Assembly: GCA_029975915.1 (NCBI GenBank)
Contig: JARKOC010000410.1
Location: forward strand, 22,823-86,822
Direction: 5' to 3'
Origin: Bryobacteraceae bacterium
Lineage (GTDB): Bacteria; Acidobacteriota; Terriglobia; Bryobacterales; Bryobacteraceae
DNA: 64,000 nt
Shown one piece after another: positions 10,600 to 56,800 of this stretch. The first letter of the stretch is position 1; each line of letters starts with the position of its first letter. The position numbers and the translations under genes were made by a program. The notes beneath the pieces were generated by a model. It was given only the letters and a program-made list of their open reading frames with translations. It had not been told where the DNA came from and did no database searches.

Positions 10600-11556
10600 C
10601 TAGTCAGCGAACATGCCTTCGAACAGCGCCGAAGTCAGGTACCTTTCGCCGGCGTCTGGCAGCACAACCACAATTGTCTTTCCCGCCATATCCTCGCGCC
10701 GGGCCAAACGTACTGCCGCTGCGGCTGCGGCCCCACACGAGATCCCGCAGAGAATCCCCTCTTCGCGGGCGAGCCTCCGCGCCATTTCCATCGACTCGTC
10801 GTTGGTCACCTGCTCGACCCTGTCCACCAAACTGAGATCCAATGTTCCCGGAATAAATCCTGCGCCGATACCCTGGATCTTATGTGGTCCGGGCTGCAAC
10901 GGTTCACCGTTGAGCGTCTGGGTGATGACCGGGCTGTGCGCGGGCTCAACCGCCACCGAGACAACGCCCTTGTTCTTTTGTTTTAAGTACTTGCTCACGC
11001 CCGTGATCGTGCCGCCCGTCCCCACACCCGACACAAAGACATCTACGTTCCCCCCAGTGTCCTGCCAGATCTCGGGTCCGGTCGTTTCGAAGTGGATTTT
11101 GGGATTGGCCGGATTCTGGAACTGCTGCAGAAGCACATAGCGGTCCGGGTCGGAATCCCGGATCTCCTCGGCTTTCGCTACAGCTCCCTTCATTCCCTTC
11201 GCGCCTTCGGTCAGGACCAAGTTCGCACCAAACACTTTCAACACTTTGCGGCGCTCGATCGACATGGTTTCCGGCATTGTCAAGGTGATAGGGTAGCCGC
11301 GCGCCGCCGCCACGAACGCCAACGCGATTCCAGTGTTGCCTGATGTCGGTTCTACCAGTTCCTTGCCGGGTCTTAAAATGCCCCGTTCTTCCGCATCCCA
11401 CACCATCGACGCGCCGATCCGGCACTTCACGGAATAGGCCGGATTGCGTCCCTCAATCTTGGCAAGGACCGTAGCCTTTGCTCCCTCTGTCAACCTGTTC
11501 AGCTTGACCAGCGGAGTGCGGCCAATGCTCAAGGAATTGTCAGCATAGATGTTCAT
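10600..11556 (-). CDS. cysK: Cysteine synthase A
   Basis: O-acetylserine sulfhydrylase, a PLP enzyme that makes cysteine from O-acetylserine and sulfide in the cytoplasm. The 318-aa length is usual. The PLP-binding Lys is K44 in NPAYSVKCR; the substrate loop TSGNTG is at 71-76; the phosphate-binding GTGGT is at 179-183; [10 protein letters not shown] near residue 274 is the conserved cofactor-proximal Ser region. The start lies 5 bp after the stop of the rrf2-type regulator, so both are one transcript. Regulation by that protein is likely because its promoter carries an inverted repeat shared with the sulfite reductase gene (55.8 kb), placing sulfide production and use under one control. Confidence 0.96.
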
Positions 11557-11561
11557 GCTCG

Positions 11562-11993
11562 CTATATCTCCCAGTTGTGCACAAATCGAGACTGCCTCTC
11601 CCTCCAGGCCCTTGCCAGTTCGGCGAAACTCGTCCGGCCTATCACGGCTTCAATTGCCCCGTCCACTTCGGCCCAGAAGAAGTCCAGAGGCCCTCTCTTG
11701 TCCAGCGAAGCCCGTCCGGTCTTGCCGCCTTCCAATGCCCGGATCACTGACCCAACTGTGATTGACTCAGCTTCACGGGCCAGCAGATATCCGCCCTCGG
11801 CGCCGCGGCGGGACTCAAGAAACCCCTGCTTCTTCAAGTCTGCCAGGATTGTTTCCAGAAACTTCTGCGGGATCTCCTGCCGTCTTGCGATGTCCGCGAT
11901 CCTGACTGGCGCGCCTGGCTCGGCCAACGTCAGATCTAGGATCGCGCGTAACGCGTACTCGCAACGGACAGATACATTCATGAGGGTCTGCAT
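11562..11993 (-). CDS. Rrf2-family transcriptional regulator, likely cysteine/sulfur regulator
   Basis: A 143-aa winged-helix protein: [15 protein letters not shown] at the N-terminus, [42 protein letters not shown] as recognition helix and wing, [11 protein letters not shown] after it; all standard for Rrf2. The three Cys that hold an Fe-S cluster in IscR/NsrR near residues 90-105 are absent, so it is more like CymR, which controls cysteine metabolism with CysK as partner. It precedes cysK by 5 bp. In-frame ATG at 11981 is a second possible start. Control of cysK and sulfite reductase is an inference from a shared promoter motif; direct interaction with CysK, as in CymR, is untested. Confidence 0.9.
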
Positions 11994-12002
11994 TCAAAGT
12001 CC

Positions 12003-12022
12003 CTATTCTAAATAGAGATTAT
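12003..12022 (-). promoter_or_regulatory. rrf2-cysK promoter with candidate operator
   Basis: On the minus strand a -10 box TAGAAT occupies 12005-12010, 11 nt before the rrf2 ATG. CTATT-CTA-AATAG (12003-12015) is a perfect 5-bp inverted repeat over it. The adjacent 11-mer ATAGAGATTAT (plus strand 12012-12022) recurs exactly, reversed, at 55798-55808 in the sulfite reductase promoter. No good -35 is seen. An element lying on the -10/spacer fits autorepression. Confidence 0.6.
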
Positions 12023-12150
12023 GGTATTGCGATGCTCATGTCAACCCCAGCCGGCTGCGAGAGGTCAGGCGATAGCCGTCGGAGTCACCGGGCCCACGCC
12101 AGTTGATGGTAAGTCCTCCGCCAATTTACGGCTTTGCAGCGCGATTCGAA

Positions 12151-49965: not shown

Positions 49966-51420
49966 CTACTCCGGAATCATCGCCCAACCCGGCCGCATCC
50001 GGGCCTTGTACAAAAACATATGGTGTAGCAGGATCTTAATCCAATGTCCCGCCAGTCCGATCTCGCCGAAGGTGTAGTTGATGTCACGGCCGAAATCCGG
50101 GTACTTCTCATAGTCTGGAACGATTGGAAACACCGTGAGCGCGGCTGCCGTGCCGGTGAATGGATTCGCTCCCGCTGAAGCGACGCAGGCGGCGCCCATC
50201 TCGGCCATCGAAGCCGTCCGAGTCGGCGATTTGGCGCCTTTGAGCATGTCTGCGATGCTGCCCGCCACCGCCTTTCCGATCATCGCCGACGGCATCCCGG
50301 TCCTGGGCGGCGCGGGCGCGATCGCCTGCCCGGCGGCTGTCGCCCTTGGCCGTGAAATCGGGTGCGGAGGCGCGAACGCAATCCCGGCGGCAAACAGGTT
50401 CGGATACGCCGGACTCTGATACGTCCTGGGCCAGTCGCGCGCCCGCCACTCCTCGTACGGTTTCTTCGTATAGTCGGCGTCCACTTTCATGAATCCGCTC
50501 GGCGCGAAGACTTTCTCCGTGATGTCGCCGCCGTCCACGCCATAGGCCTTCAGACCAACCCCGGAAAACGGCGGAAGCAGCATCGCCATGTCAAACTTGA
50601 CTTCCCGCTCCTCGCCGTCTAGCGTCTCGATATGAGCCGCGCCTGGATCCACCTGTTTTACGTGCGCGCGCTTGATGTAATCGATGCCACGTTCGGCGAA
50701 CAGCGACTCGTGGAAAATCTTACTAGGCGTGATGTATCCGCCGCTGCGGATGTGCATCCCGTCCATGCCGAAGTCGCCCAACTCGTATTCATTGGTCAGA
50801 TAGATGACCTCGGCCTTGTCGCGCACGCCGCGCGCGCGAAGCTCGAATTCGAGGTTGACGACATATTCGAACGCCGCACCCTCGCACGTGCAGGTTCCGT
50901 GGCCGGTCCCCACAACGAAACGCTGGCGCTCGCCGCGCTTCATCCGCTCGACTCTTTCCAGAAATGCCGTTGAGGCCTGCTCGGCGTGGCCCGCCGTGCA
51001 CACCGAAAGCGAATTGCGCTCCGGGCCCAATCCTGGCGTTGCCTCGAAGTTCAGCTTGGGCCCCGTTGCGTTCAGCAGAAAATCGTAGCTGATCTTCTCC
51101 CGCTCACCGGCCTTGCCCTCGCCTGTGTACTCAATTTCGACATGTGGCTTCGCCAGCCCGGCGGCTCCGTCAGGGTACAGCGCAACGGCCTTGGCCTGGT
51201 GGAAAACAATGCCCGCGCGCCGGTAAACCGGAGCCAGCGGAAACACCACCTGGTCCCGCTTCAGCAGCCCGACGCCGACCCAGATGTTCGATGGAATCCA
51301 ATTGTACTCGGGCTTGGGCGAAACGACGGCGACTTCGTCCTTCTTGCCCAGCCATTTGCGCAGGAACGCCGCCGCGGTATGCCCGGCTACGCCCGCACCC
51401 AATACAACTACACGTGCCAT
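49966..51420 (-). CDS. Sulfide:quinone oxidoreductase-like FAD-dependent oxidoreductase
   Basis: The ATG at 51420 follows a GGGAGG and starts the FAD Rossmann motif (ARVVVLGAGVAGHTAAAFL); the upstream in-frame extension is rejected. The 484-aa protein has PEYNWIPSNIWVGVG, the Sqr-like substrate region, and FVVGTGHGTCTCEGAAFEYV with Cys where type I Sqr has its active Cys, plus SVCTAGHAEQAS. The end (GEIGLAGHWIKILLHHMFLYKARMRP in part) is an amphipathic helix of the kind that anchors Sqr to the membrane. It probably oxidises sulfide to polysulfide and reduces quinone. A different NDH-2-like role is possible. Confidence 0.85.
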   Translation of the reverse strand: MARVVVLGAGVAGHTAAAFLRKWLGKKDEVAVVSPKPEYNWIPSNIWVGVGLLKRDQVVFPLAPVYRRAGIVFHQAKAVALYPDGAAGLAKPHVEIEYTGEGKAGEREKISYDFLLNATGPKLNFEATPGLGPERNSLSVCTAGHAEQASTAFLERVERMKRGERQRFVVGTGHGTCTCEGAAFEYVVNLEFELRARGVRDKAEVIYLTNEYELGDFGMDGMHIRSGGYITPSKIFHESLFAERGIDYIKRAHVKQVDPGAAHIETLDGEEREVKFDMAMLLPPFSGVGLKAYGVDGGDITEKVFAPSGFMKVDADYTKKPYEEWRARDWPRTYQSPAYPNLFAAGIAFAPPHPISRPRATAAGQAIAPAPPRTGMPSAMIGKAVAGSIADMLKGAKSPTRTASMAEMGAACVASAGANPFTGTAAALTVFPIVPDYEKYPDFGRDINYTFGEIGLAGHWIKILLHHMFLYKARMRPGWAMIPE

Positions 51421-51552
51421 CGAATCACCGCCTCCCTTGCACTGCACAGTAAGATACAGCAGCCAGCCACTGGTGACAACCGGCGGTGCTCTTTTGATCT
51501 TGTGTTGCGTACCGGCAGCCATCGCGCCGGCATTAGGGCGCACCGGCTACGG

Positions 51553-53234: not shown

Positions 53235-53981
53235 CTATGCGGCCGCGGCAGCGCGGGCCACCGCCAGCAATTTGCTTCGCTGGCGGACCACCTCGCCGGC
53301 GACCATGACGGCCGGGTTCGACACTTCCACCAGTCCGGCGGCGATGTCGGCGAGCGTGGTCACGATGACGCGTTCGCGCGGCGTGGTCCCGTTCTCGATG
53401 AAGCCGGCCGGTTGCGCGGTATCGCGGCCCAGGCGGATGAGGCACTGGGCGATTTCGGCCCGGCGGGCGACGCCCATCAGGATGATGAGCGTTTCGACCT
53501 GGGCGTAGGCGGCCCACTGGTCGCAGCCGCCCTCCTGGCGGTGGCCGGTGACGACGGCGAATCCGCCCGAAACGCCGCGGAAGGTCGGGGGGATGCCGGC
53601 CAAGGACGGCACGGCAATGGCCGATGAGATGCCGGGGACGACCTCCACGTTCCAGCCGCGCTGGGCGAGCCAGGCCCACTCCTCGGCGCCGCGGCCGAAG
53701 ACCATCGGGTCGCCGCCCTTGAGACGGATGACGATCCGATGGCGGCGGGCGCAGTCTTCCATAAGATGCAGGATTTCGTTTTGGATTGTCTCCTGCTGGC
53801 CTTCGTGCTTGCCTACGAAATGCAGTTCGGCATCGGGGCGAGCCAGGGCCAGCACTTCGGGCGCGACCAGGCGGTCATAGAGGACCGCGCCGGCCTGGGC
53901 CAACAGACGGGCGGCCTTGACGGTGAGCAGGTCCGGGTCACCTGGTCCGGCGCCAACGAGATATATGGTGCTATCGGTCAT
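53235..53981 (-). CDS. cobA: Uroporphyrinogen-III C-methyltransferase
   Basis: SUMT makes precorrin-2, first step of siroheme (and cobalamin) synthesis. The 248-aa protein has IYLVGAGPGDPDLLTVKA, YDRLV, RLKGGDPMVFGRGAEE, VVPGISSAIAVPSLAGIP and GFIENGTTPRERV, all SUMT signatures, without the CysG dehydrogenase/ferrochelatase domain. The sulfite reductase downstream of it on the map, transcribed the same way, needs siroheme, so the pair fits. The rest of siroheme synthesis is not in the window. Confidence 0.95.
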   Translation of the reverse strand: MTDSTIYLVGAGPGDPDLLTVKAARLLAQAGAVLYDRLVAPEVLALARPDAELHFVGKHEGQQETIQNEILHLMEDCARRHRIVIRLKGGDPMVFGRGAEEWAWLAQRGWNVEVVPGISSAIAVPSLAGIPPTFRGVSGGFAVVTGHRQEGGCDQWAAYAQVETLIILMGVARRAEIAQCLIRLGRDTAQPAGFIENGTTPRERVIVTTLADIAAGLVEVSNPAVMVAGEVVRQRSKLLAVARAAAAA

Positions 53982-54144: not shown

Positions 54145-55773
54145 TCATTCGGGTTGGACTCGCACGAACCAGTCGCCGAAGGTCTCGCCGGCGGACCGTT
54201 CGGTTGCGAAGCGGCTGACCAGCGGCTGGAGGGTGGCGGCGATTTCGGCGACCGGGACGAGTTTGCGCCACGGACGGGCGAGCCGTTCACCGGTTTCCGA
54301 GCCGCCGAGATATAGCGTGTACAGGTTCACGCTTTCACCGACGACGCCGATTTCGGCTGTGTAGGGACGGGCGCAGCCGTTTGGGCAGCCTGTCGTCCGC
54401 AGCCGCACCGGGAAATCGCCGAGTTCCACCGCATCAAAGAGCGACTGCACCTGGCCGGCGATCGATGGCAACGTCCGCTCGCTCTCCGTGATGGCCTGGC
54501 CGCACGTGGGCAGCGCCGGGCACGACATCGAGTGCCGCAGAACGGGCGGCAACTGGTCGCCGGTGACGATGCCATTACGGCGGAGGCTGTCATCGAATGA
54601 AGCTTTCCGTGATTCTGGGATCCCGCAAATGAGCATGTTCTGCTGGACGGTGAACCGGATGGCAGGCTGGAACTCCTCGATCACTCGTCTCAAGCCCTCG
54701 CGTTGATCGCCTTTGATCCGTCCGCTGACAATGCGCAGCCCGAAGAACCACTGCCCGGGAGCCTGGCGGTGCCAGCCAAGATAGTCGTCTCCGCGGGTCC
54801 ATGTCAGCTCGCAAGGCGGAGTCAGCGCGCGCCCAAGCCGCGAAGCAAGCTCCTGCCGGAACCACTCGATCCCCCGTTCCTGGATGACGTATTTCAGCCG
54901 GGCAAGCCGGCGATTCGACCGGTTGCCGAAGTCACGGTGGATCGTGACGACGGCTTTGGCGGTTTCGAGGACTTCACCAGGGTGGATGAAACAGACTGGA
55001 TCAGCCAGCCGGGGAAAACTGTCTTTAACGCCGTTGGACTGGCCCATGCCGCCGCCAGCGAGGACCGTGAAACCCGCTAACTCGCCGTCAGCCGAATGCG
55101 CCACAAAACCGAGGTCGTTGGCGTAGACGTCCACTGTGTTGTCGCTCTCGTGAACGAAGCAAATCTTGAACTTCCGCGGCAGATAAGACTGGCCGTACAA
55201 AGGCTCGGTTTCCGGCTTCTCCAGCGAGACTGCTCTTTCGCCGTCCAACCATATCTCTACGTAAGCGCTGGACTTGGGCTTTAGTTCTCTCGCGACCAAA
55301 CGAACTGTCTCCGTCAGGTCGGGCCGGCCTTCGAGCGGTTCCGGGCTGGCGGTAACGTTGCGCACCACGTCGCCGCAGGCCGCCCAGGTCCCCAATCCGG
55401 TAGCGTTGATGGCGGCGATCAGCGCCTTCAGATTCCGTTTGCCGACATAGTGATATTGGACACCTTGGCGCGAGGTGATGCGCAGAGTACCGTCGCCGGC
55501 CTTGTCGGCGAGGCGGTCCAGTTCAAGATATTGCGCCGAGGTCAGGCCGCCGCCCGGAATCCCGACACGGACCATAGAACTGTACACTTTTGTAGGGCTA
55601 GTCTTGCGAAGATCCCGGTCATCCTGCTGGTAGGCGCCATGGAACTTCAGCAGAGCGGAGGCGGGCTTCGAGAAGGAGTCGGAGTCGTGCTTGAGTTCCT
55701 CGGCGATCGTCCCCCGAAGGAACTGGCTCGATGATTTCAATGCCTCGGCGGCAGACAGGCGAGGGGGTTCCAT
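54145..55773 (-). CDS. Siroheme/4Fe-4S sulfite reductase
   Basis: Reduces sulfite to sulfide with six electrons. The start is the ATG at 55773; a TTG three codons upstream lies within the promoter. The 542-aa hemoprotein has two nitrite/sulfite reductase halves: TLRITSRQGVQYHYV, AACGDVVRNVTASP, and the cluster ligands C418 and C424 (SCPALPTC) with C463 and C467 (GCPNGC). The chain fits ferredoxin- or NADPH-dependent enzymes, and an FNR-like flavoprotein gene lies 0.3 kb upstream on the same strand. Its own promoter (TTGATA-17-TAGGAT) carries the motif shared with rrf2-cysK. Confidence 0.93.
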   Translation of the reverse strand: MEPPRLSAAEALKSSSQFLRGTIAEELKHDSDSFSKPASALLKFHGAYQQDDRDLRKTSPTKVYSSMVRVGIPGGGLTSAQYLELDRLADKAGDGTLRITSRQGVQYHYVGKRNLKALIAAINATGLGTWAACGDVVRNVTASPEPLEGRPDLTETVRLVARELKPKSSAYVEIWLDGERAVSLEKPETEPLYGQSYLPRKFKICFVHESDNTVDVYANDLGFVAHSADGELAGFTVLAGGGMGQSNGVKDSFPRLADPVCFIHPGEVLETAKAVVTIHRDFGNRSNRRLARLKYVIQERGIEWFRQELASRLGRALTPPCELTWTRGDDYLGWHRQAPGQWFFGLRIVSGRIKGDQREGLRRVIEEFQPAIRFTVQQNMLICGIPESRKASFDDSLRRNGIVTGDQLPPVLRHSMSCPALPTCGQAITESERTLPSIAGQVQSLFDAVELGDFPVRLRTTGCPNGCARPYTAEIGVVGESVNLYTLYLGGSETGERLARPWRKLVPVAEIAATLQPLVSRFATERSAGETFGDWFVRVQPE

Positions 55774-55782
55774 GCTAAGCAA

Positions 55783-55811
55783 ATCCTAGCATATTGGATA
55801 ATCTCTATCAA
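55783..55811 (-). promoter_or_regulatory. Sulfite reductase promoter with operator shared with rrf2-cysK
   Basis: On the minus strand TTGATA (55806-55811), 17 nt, TAGGAT (55783-55788), ending nine bases before the ATG. The 11-mer ATAATCTCTAT (plus strand 55798-55808) is identical, reversed, to that at 12012-12022 in the rrf2 promoter, with partial similarity beyond. The promoter overlaps the end of the upstream small gene. Confidence 0.65.
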
Positions 55812-56080
55812 GTATTAGGAGTTTCTTTGTTCTCGTCGGACTGGAGTTCGTTTGGTCGCGGCTTCCGGCGCACGAAGTTGTCTCCGCTCTTATAGATAGT
55901 GGAGATGAGCATGACGAAGATGGCGCCCAGGGCTACCAGCGTGGCCACCGTACCGATAACCAGGAAGTCGGTCGCCGTGCGAGGTTCCGGCACGATGGCG
56001 AGTCCGATGGCGATAGTGACTCCGAACAGGATGACGGCAGCGCCAAGGAGAGTCAGCCACCGAATCGTGCCAGGTTGCAT
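55808..56080 (-). CDS. Small two-TM membrane protein (90 aa)
   Basis: Two membrane helices (about 8-30, TLLGAAVILFGVTIAIGLAIV; about 40-62, DFLVIGTVATLVALGAIFVM), then a basic, polar tail (YKSGDNFVRRKPRPNELQSDENKETPNT). No family recognised. It lies between the FNR-like gene (31 bp upstream) and sulfite reductase (34 bp downstream), all on the minus strand. It could anchor the electron-transfer pair, but this is a guess from position. Confidence 0.7.
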   Translation of the reverse strand: MQPGTIRWLTLLGAAVILFGVTIAIGLAIVPEPRTATDFLVIGTVATLVALGAIFVMLISTIYKSGDNFVRRKPRPNELQSDENKETPNT

Positions 56081-56110: not shown

Positions 56111-56800
56111 CTAGTCGTATTTCTCGTAGTGGATGAGGCTCTTATCCAGTCCACGGGCGGCGAGAAGGCTGCGGACTTCATCCACCATGGCTCTGAGGCC
56201 GCAGATGTAGACGTGAACATCTGTCCGGCCCGCGAGAACCTCATCAAGGTGCGTCTGAACCCGGCCGGACAGTCCGGTCCACCCGGCGGGGGGCCTGGTC
56301 AGGGTGGGCAGAAAGCGGAAGCCCGGCCGCGTGGCTTCCAGATGTTCGAATTCCTGCTTATACAGCAGCGACTCCTCATAACGGGCCCCGAGAAGCAAGG
56401 TGATCTGGGCTGCCGATTCCGCGACCGCCTTCGATTGCAGGAAGGCGCGGAACGGGGCGACGCCTGTGCCGGTGGCGATGAGGATTGAGTCGGTGAATGG
56501 CTGCTTCGGAGTGAAGGAACCGAGCGGACCTTTCATGGACAGCGATTGGCCAGGTTCCAACCGGAACAGCCACGGCGAGAACAGGCCCTCCTTGACACGG
56601 TTCAGGCAGAGTTCAAAACGGTTGCCGTGGGGGGCCGATGCCAGCGAGTAGGCCCGGGTCACCTTCTTTTCCTTGACCGTTTCGGTGATGGAGACCCACT
56701 GCCCAGGAGTGAAGTCGAGGGCAGGAGTTTCAGCGGCTTCAAACAGGAAGTGACGCACTTCAGGCGCAATCTCATGAGTCTCGATCAGGGTGGCTTTCAT
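56111..56800 (-). CDS. FNR-like FAD/NAD(P)-binding oxidoreductase
   Basis: A 229-aa flavoprotein of the ferredoxin-NADP reductase superfamily without a ferredoxin domain: FTPGQWVSITE, the FAD motif RAYSLASAP, GPLGSFTPK, the NAD(P) motif ILIATGTGVAPFRAFL, LLLGARYEESLLYKQEF, and VYICGLRAMVDEVRSLL. The ending KSLIHYEKYD replaces the usual terminal aromatic of plant-type FNR with a Tyr-containing end. It probably supplies electrons to the nearby sulfite reductase directly or through a ferredoxin. Clearly distinct from CysJ, which also has a flavodoxin domain. Confidence 0.92.
   Translation of the reverse strand: MKATLIETHEIAPEVRHFLFEAAETPALDFTPGQWVSITETVKEKKVTRAYSLASAPHGNRFELCLNRVKEGLFSPWLFRLEPGQSLSMKGPLGSFTPKQPFTDSILIATGTGVAPFRAFLQSKAVAESAAQITLLLGARYEESLLYKQEFEHLEATRPGFRFLPTLTRPPAGWTGLSGRVQTHLDEVLAGRTDVHVYICGLRAMVDEVRSLLAARGLDKSLIHYEKYD

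Follow-up and report, generated by a model that had tools for sequence, protein, structure and literature searches.

A CymR-like cysteine sensor, made up of an Rrf2-family regulator and the cysteine synthase CysK encoded next to it, probably acts through a DNA element shared by the rrf2-cysK and sulfite reductase (sir) promoters of the window, by which we mean the whole stretch of 64,000 nucleotides analysed. The sequence supports the conserved site, its placement on predicted promoters, the pathway of the genes concerned and the conservation of the C-terminal tail of Rrf2; DNA binding, repression and a signal running through CysK and O-acetylserine are what we infer. The initial annotation had proposed that rrf2-cysK and sir share a site and belong to a candidate sulfur regulon. 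This proposal stands: the site is conserved and operator-like, and the cysDNH genes of relatives have it too.

The exact sequence ATAGAGATTAT is present twice in the window, on the + strand at 12012-12022 and on the - strand at 55798-55808, with no third copy, as expected from the claim that it lies at exactly two promoters, those of rrf2-cysK and sir (Table 1). The chance expectation under a first-order Markov model of the window is 0.0027 copies, and ATAGAGATTAT is the sole repeated 11-mer with at least nine A or T in this 61% GC window. When up to two mismatches were allowed, 4 matches were found vs 3.74 expected, which leaves the exact copies as the only informative ones. A stronger test was comparative and used a profile (R1) built from 26 rrf2-promoter sites, with the window rrf2 site in the training set and the sir site outside it. 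At E<=10, R1 recovered two sites only in the window, the rrf2 copy (24.3 bits) and the sir copy (12.9 bits, E=0.0078). Both results agree with the earlier view that the match is unlikely by chance. ATAGAGATTAT is the conserved half of a putative operator of 25-32 bp. The second half is weak, and dyad analysis fits two almost equally strong centres, at columns 15.5 and 20 (45% and 44% of paired cells). In one subclade the rrf2 site takes the palindromic form TATTCTCT-NN-AGAGAATA, without a mismatch in some rows. Searching the window for a 25-bp dyad with three mismatches allowed gave 6 matches vs 2.02 expected, and this pattern was discarded as too loose.

Table 1. Genes and predicted control elements of the window discussed in the text.
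Feature	Position	Strand	Profile match
cysK, cysteine synthase A, 5 bp 3' of rrf2	10600..11556	-	TIGR01139, 460 bits, above cut-off
rrf2, Rrf2-family regulator, 143 aa, C-terminus NWEI	11562..11993	-	TIGR00738, PF02082
rrf2-cysK putative operator, 32-bp profile frame, core AATCTCTA	11996..12027	-	
rrf2-cysK -10 box TAATCT (predicted), within operator, spacer 17	12016..12021	-	
rrf2-cysK -35 box TTGACA (predicted)	12039..12044	-	
uroporphyrinogen-III C-methyltransferase, siroheme pathway, 3' of sir	53235..53981	-	TIGR01469, 261.4 bits, above cut-off
sir, assimilatory sulfite reductase hemoprotein, ATG at 55773	54145..55773	-	NF010029, 652.7 bits, above cut-off
sir -10 box TAGGAT (predicted), spacer 17	55783..55788	-	
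sir putative operator, 32-bp frame, core AATCTCTA on + strand, opposite to gene	55793..55824	+	
sir -35 box TTGATA (predicted), within operator	55806..55811	-	

The element had been placed directly upstream of the rrf2-cysK -10 box; instead, it contains the predicted -10 box, TAATCT, which lies 17 bp from TTGACA. The hexamer TAGAAT, presumably the earlier choice of -10, has no -35 box at the usual distance when inspected by eye. In the sir promoter, the element overlaps the -35 box TTGATA, as the initial annotation had it. Similar arrangements are found in relatives. At rrf2, 17 of 26 sites have a -35 hexamer (four or more of 6 positions matching) 16-18 bp before the hexamer at the operator start. 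At the 17 sir and cysD sites inspected, the -35 hexamer inside the element is TTGATA (9), TTGCTA (7) or TGGATA (1), and a -10 box matching at 3 to 5 of its 6 positions follows at 17-18 bp. At rrf2 the conserved half has the orientation of the gene and contains the -10 box; at sir and cysD it is oriented against the gene and contains the -35 box. Because of this opposite strand and of the -35 position at sir and cysD, the element is not just one promoter box. Judged from its position over a predicted -10 or -35 box, the element implies repression.

Several other features surround sir. The methyltransferase gene lies on the same strand and is presumably co-transcribed with sir. A putative membrane-protein reading frame of 90 aa (55808-56080, -) has its TGA stop inside the sir operator, part of whose weak half is thus also coding; at L014 and L015, comparable reading frames were seen by sight ahead of sir. 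Further upstream on the same strand, 56111-56800 (-) encodes an oxidoreductase in which Pfam recognises FAD- and NAD-binding domains but no ferredoxin domain; it might serve the sulfite reductase. The region 49966-51543 (-) matches a sulfide:quinone reductase model only weakly (50.5 bits vs a cut-off of 525).

The 13 protein relatives of Rrf2 that were found are all in records with acidobacterial names, and of 200 genomes from the order to which G002 belongs, probably Bryobacterales, 190 have a match at E<=1e-20. The core A[AT]TCTCTA was found upstream of rrf2 in 25 of 38 loci, all taken from among the best matches; five loci (L001-L005) were omitted from this count as duplicates of L017, L019, L018, L021 and L043. 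The exact core is absent in the other 13 loci, one of which, L010, offers just 53 bp of sequence upstream of the start.

A matrix built only from the rrf2 sites of R1 was then applied to the sir and cysD loci of relatives. Few genomes of the order, 25 of 200, have such a sir gene. In 13 of 25 sir loci, the best position of the whole locus lies 20-130 bp upstream of sir (0.64 loci expected). The test failed in the 12 other loci: the site ranks 2 in L049, sir stands by sight directly behind another gene in L055, L057, L058, L059, L066 and L068, and the best matrix position is elsewhere in L060-L063 and L067. A match upstream of a sulfate adenylyltransferase gene in L089 led to a search with PF01507, found in 13 of 16 genomes. 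Curated profiles applied to one genome (G003) gave the operon order cysD-cysN-cysH, and in another (G059) sir is inside the cysD operon. For cysD, the best position lies just upstream of the gene in 13 of 17 loci (0.51 expected); the 4 failing loci hold second copies (L092, L093, L097, L101) without operator, perhaps devoted to another use of activated sulfate. Binomial p-values are 8e-15 for sir and 4e-17 for cysD, both too small because the loci are related; what counts is where the sites lie and which pathway they belong to. These cysD sites extend the candidate regulon to cysDNH. The search for the site at other sulfur genes, carried out in relatives, was thus positive for cysDNH and negative for cysE: in 23 acetyltransferase loci, the best matrix score anywhere in the locus is at most 8.7, and the best position is just upstream of the gene in two, L134 (3.4) and L143 (8.4), which is about the chance level. 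Membership of cysE in the regulon is therefore unsupported.

Specificity was assessed by whole-genome searches in the 16 relatives' genomes with the best rrf2 matches. With R1, the rrf2 site is the top match in all 16 genomes, most of which trained R1. Six further matches correspond to one cysD, no sir and five genes without evident sulfur role, so the rrf2-only model has little power genome-wide, and the weight falls on the tests of upstream regions: the window profile search, the sir loci and the cysD loci. A second model, R2, was built from 34 rrf2, cysD and sir sites. At E<=0.22, all 31 R2 matches in the 16 genomes are at rrf2 (15), cysD (12) or sir (4), a result that is partly circular as most matched sites built R2. 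A thirteenth cysD appears at E 0.459, among other matches, and the rrf2 site of G134 is missed by R2 and found by R1. Excluded from R2 were the rrf2 rows L013, L020, L023, L024, L026, L029, L030 and L040, as well as L015, L109 and the diverged sir sites; the register of L047, L091 and L110, on the other strand, was set by hand. No more than 150 first-look candidates were scored in 9 (R1) and 8 (R2) of the 16 genomes, so weak sites may be missed.

Eleven further R2 places were read. Five are inside long reading frames (L183-L187, three being the same gene). Three lie, in related genomes, directly before a gene of the redoxin/AhpC-TSA type (L177:2067-2098, L178:2058-2089 and L179:2056-2087; Pfam assignment for L177 only), making this gene a candidate fourth target of the putative regulon. 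The last three, between genes without recognised sulfur role (L180:2056-2087, L181:2053-2084 and L182:2008-2039), are either chance matches or further targets.

The regulator passes the cut-offs of the Rrf2 superfamily (TIGR00738, 97.3 bits, cut-off 73.3; PF02082, 100.6 bits, cut-off 30). It has a single cysteine, at residue 11 (window 11961-11963, -), and none in residues 86-110, which we take to cover the cluster-binding cysteine positions of IscR. The initial annotation was thus right that the Fe-S cysteines of IscR are lacking, and membership of the IscR group was rejected. Its description of the regulator as CymR-like is supported by the fold. The predicted structure (mean pLDDT 82.8) has the chains of CymR 2y75 as its matches of rank 1-3, with about 29% identity over the fold match and with IscR structures close behind. 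By sequence, however, the ranking is reversed among solved structures, T. potens IscR being the best and E. coli IscR the next, both above CymR, and the protein misses the threshold of the CymR equivalog NF047409 (80.3 vs 195 bits) as well as that of IscR TIGR02010 (71.8 vs 207.55 bits). Some relatives carry the database label 'cysteine metabolism repressor'.

The earlier suggestion that CysK might be a co-regulator gains support from a near-invariant C-terminal Ile tail of Rrf2. The last residue is Ile in 119 of the 120 proteins listed, the window's included, out of 4593 found, and in 43 of 43 genome rows representing 38 distinct places. Residues 139-143 have a mean conservation of 97% vs 83% for the winged-helix part (residues 8-88), and the last five residues are predicted to be disordered (pLDDT<50). 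Across 39 rows, the terminal Ile codon is ATC (24) or ATT (15), and the distance from rrf2 to cysK, which was found in 35 of these rows, ranges from -4 to 129 bp; this variation in codon and distance argues for selection on the peptide. Because GGGAG occurs within the NWEI codons ahead of cysK, conservation of the tail as a ribosome site was examined as another cause. It was rejected because (i) the Glu codon varies (GAG 30, GAA 5, GAT 3, CAG 1 in 39 rows, one place being represented twice) and (ii) the tail is kept where cysK is 34, 55 or 129 bp away. In a search of the phylum, 61 of 297 genomes have a match at E<=1e-15 and only 4 matches reach residue 143; the tail-bearing orthologue therefore seems limited to the order and its near kin.

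Such a tail has precedents. The passages cited here describe contacts of the C-terminal Ile of CysE, CdiA and EGL-9 with CysK or its homologue (PMC12895370; PMC5562914; PMC4961446), and one of these sources, in the part concerned, counts CymR among the proteins with such a motif, B. subtilis CymR having a C-terminal Ile (PMC12895370). CysK is further described, in the sections cited, as stabilising CymR on DNA and as reporting O-acetylserine (PMC4961446; PMC2940859). The element is probably the operator of the Rrf2 protein encoded in the window. Bound as a dimer over the -10 box, Rrf2 would repress its own operon, rrf2-cysK; over the -35 box, it would repress sir here and, in relatives, cysDNH. 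CysK would be its partner, the disordered NWEI tail placing the terminal Ile in the CysK active site. When cysteine is short, O-acetylserine would displace the tail from CysK, the Rrf2-CysK complex would leave the DNA and sulfate assimilation would be switched on.

The ordinary CysE of the group has no terminal Ile in 17 of the 18 loci above the CysE cut-off. Among the loci examined, serine-acetyltransferase-like proteins ending in Ile (FQI or MYI) are present in L139, L140, L141, L143 and L144, the L143 protein being above the CysE cut-off and the other four below it; Rrf2 is therefore not the only protein whose tail could dock. We tentatively raise the idea, for which the odds seem nearly balanced, that Rrf2 took over the CysK docking site while ordinary CysE lost its Ile, and that cysteine synthase thereby reports cysteine status to transcription. 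If so, this reporting would replace the classical cysteine synthase complex or compete with it, and where a genome encodes an acetyltransferase ending in Ile, CysK would be contested by both tails.

Other readings of the same data were weighed. The operator may belong to Rrf2 with CysK uninvolved, the regulator sensing its signal directly, for instance through a thiol switch at its single conserved cysteine. Such a switch is possible: among the 120 proteins listed of 4593, the position of Cys11 holds Cys in 113 and Ser in 2, the searched context being absent in 5, and S. aureus CymR loses DNA binding upon oxidation of a surface cysteine, according to the section cited (PMC9338935). We nevertheless consider direct sensing without CysK unlikely, as it leaves unexplained both the near-invariant disordered tail and the pairing of the two genes, cysK following rrf2 in 29 of the 30 loci with the best Rrf2 matches. 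The two are not exclusive, and partnership with CysK can coexist with sensing through Cys11. Less probable still is that the shared element is bound by another regulator, with rrf2-cysK as just one of its targets. Co-regulation alone would yield the same DNA pattern; yet the site precedes rrf2 itself in the majority of loci (25/38), as expected of an autoregulated repressor, and the length of the element suits Rrf2 operators, a site of 23 bp for NsrR and a fragment of 29 bp for IscR being given in the part of the source concerned (PMC9338935). Finally, that the 11-bp match is a coincidence or a mere shared promoter box is very improbable: repeated 11-mers of any composition are common (2537 in the window) and the element overlaps -10 and -35 boxes that are constrained anyway, but it lies on opposite strands and over different boxes at rrf2 and at sir/cysD, it recurs in relatives, and a matrix made from rrf2 sites picks the upstream regions of sir and cysD. 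Taken together, these data make it most likely that rrf2-cysK, sir and cysDNH form a regulon that works like that of CymR, with a regulator outside the CymR equivalog by the cut-off tested.

Among the matches listed in searches of open-access literature, no paper describes such a regulon, as judged by title and start of abstract. The Acidobacteria group gains a testable candidate regulator for sulfate assimilation, and the data suggest that cysteine sensing by way of CysK, known from CymR in Firmicutes, has a wider distribution. Sensor, partner and operator stand here side by side, and because the tail, the operator and the promoters are all short, peptides and oligonucleotides suffice to test each step.

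Sulfur assimilation in enterobacteria is controlled by CysB and Cbl, LysR-family activators that respond to an O-acetylserine-related signal. The target pathway is the same as that proposed here; the family differs, and these proteins activate rather than repress by lying over promoter boxes. IscR shares with the window protein the Rrf2 fold with its winged helix, and T. potens IscR is its best match by sequence among solved structures; in contrast to IscR, the window protein lacks Cys in residues 86-110, scores below the IscR cut-off and has its candidate sites at sulfur assimilation genes. The closest likeness in design is to CymR of Bacillus subtilis and Staphylococcus aureus: an Rrf2 fold without Fe-S cluster, 2y75 being the top fold match, cysteine and sulfur genes as probable targets, a terminal Ile and CysK in the same circuit. 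Unlike CymR, the window regulator falls below the equivalog cut-off and has residue 11 as its only Cys, compared with Cys25 of S. aureus CymR; its gene adjoins cysK and has a candidate site on its promoter; and its candidate targets, in an Acidobacteria group, include sir and cysDNH.
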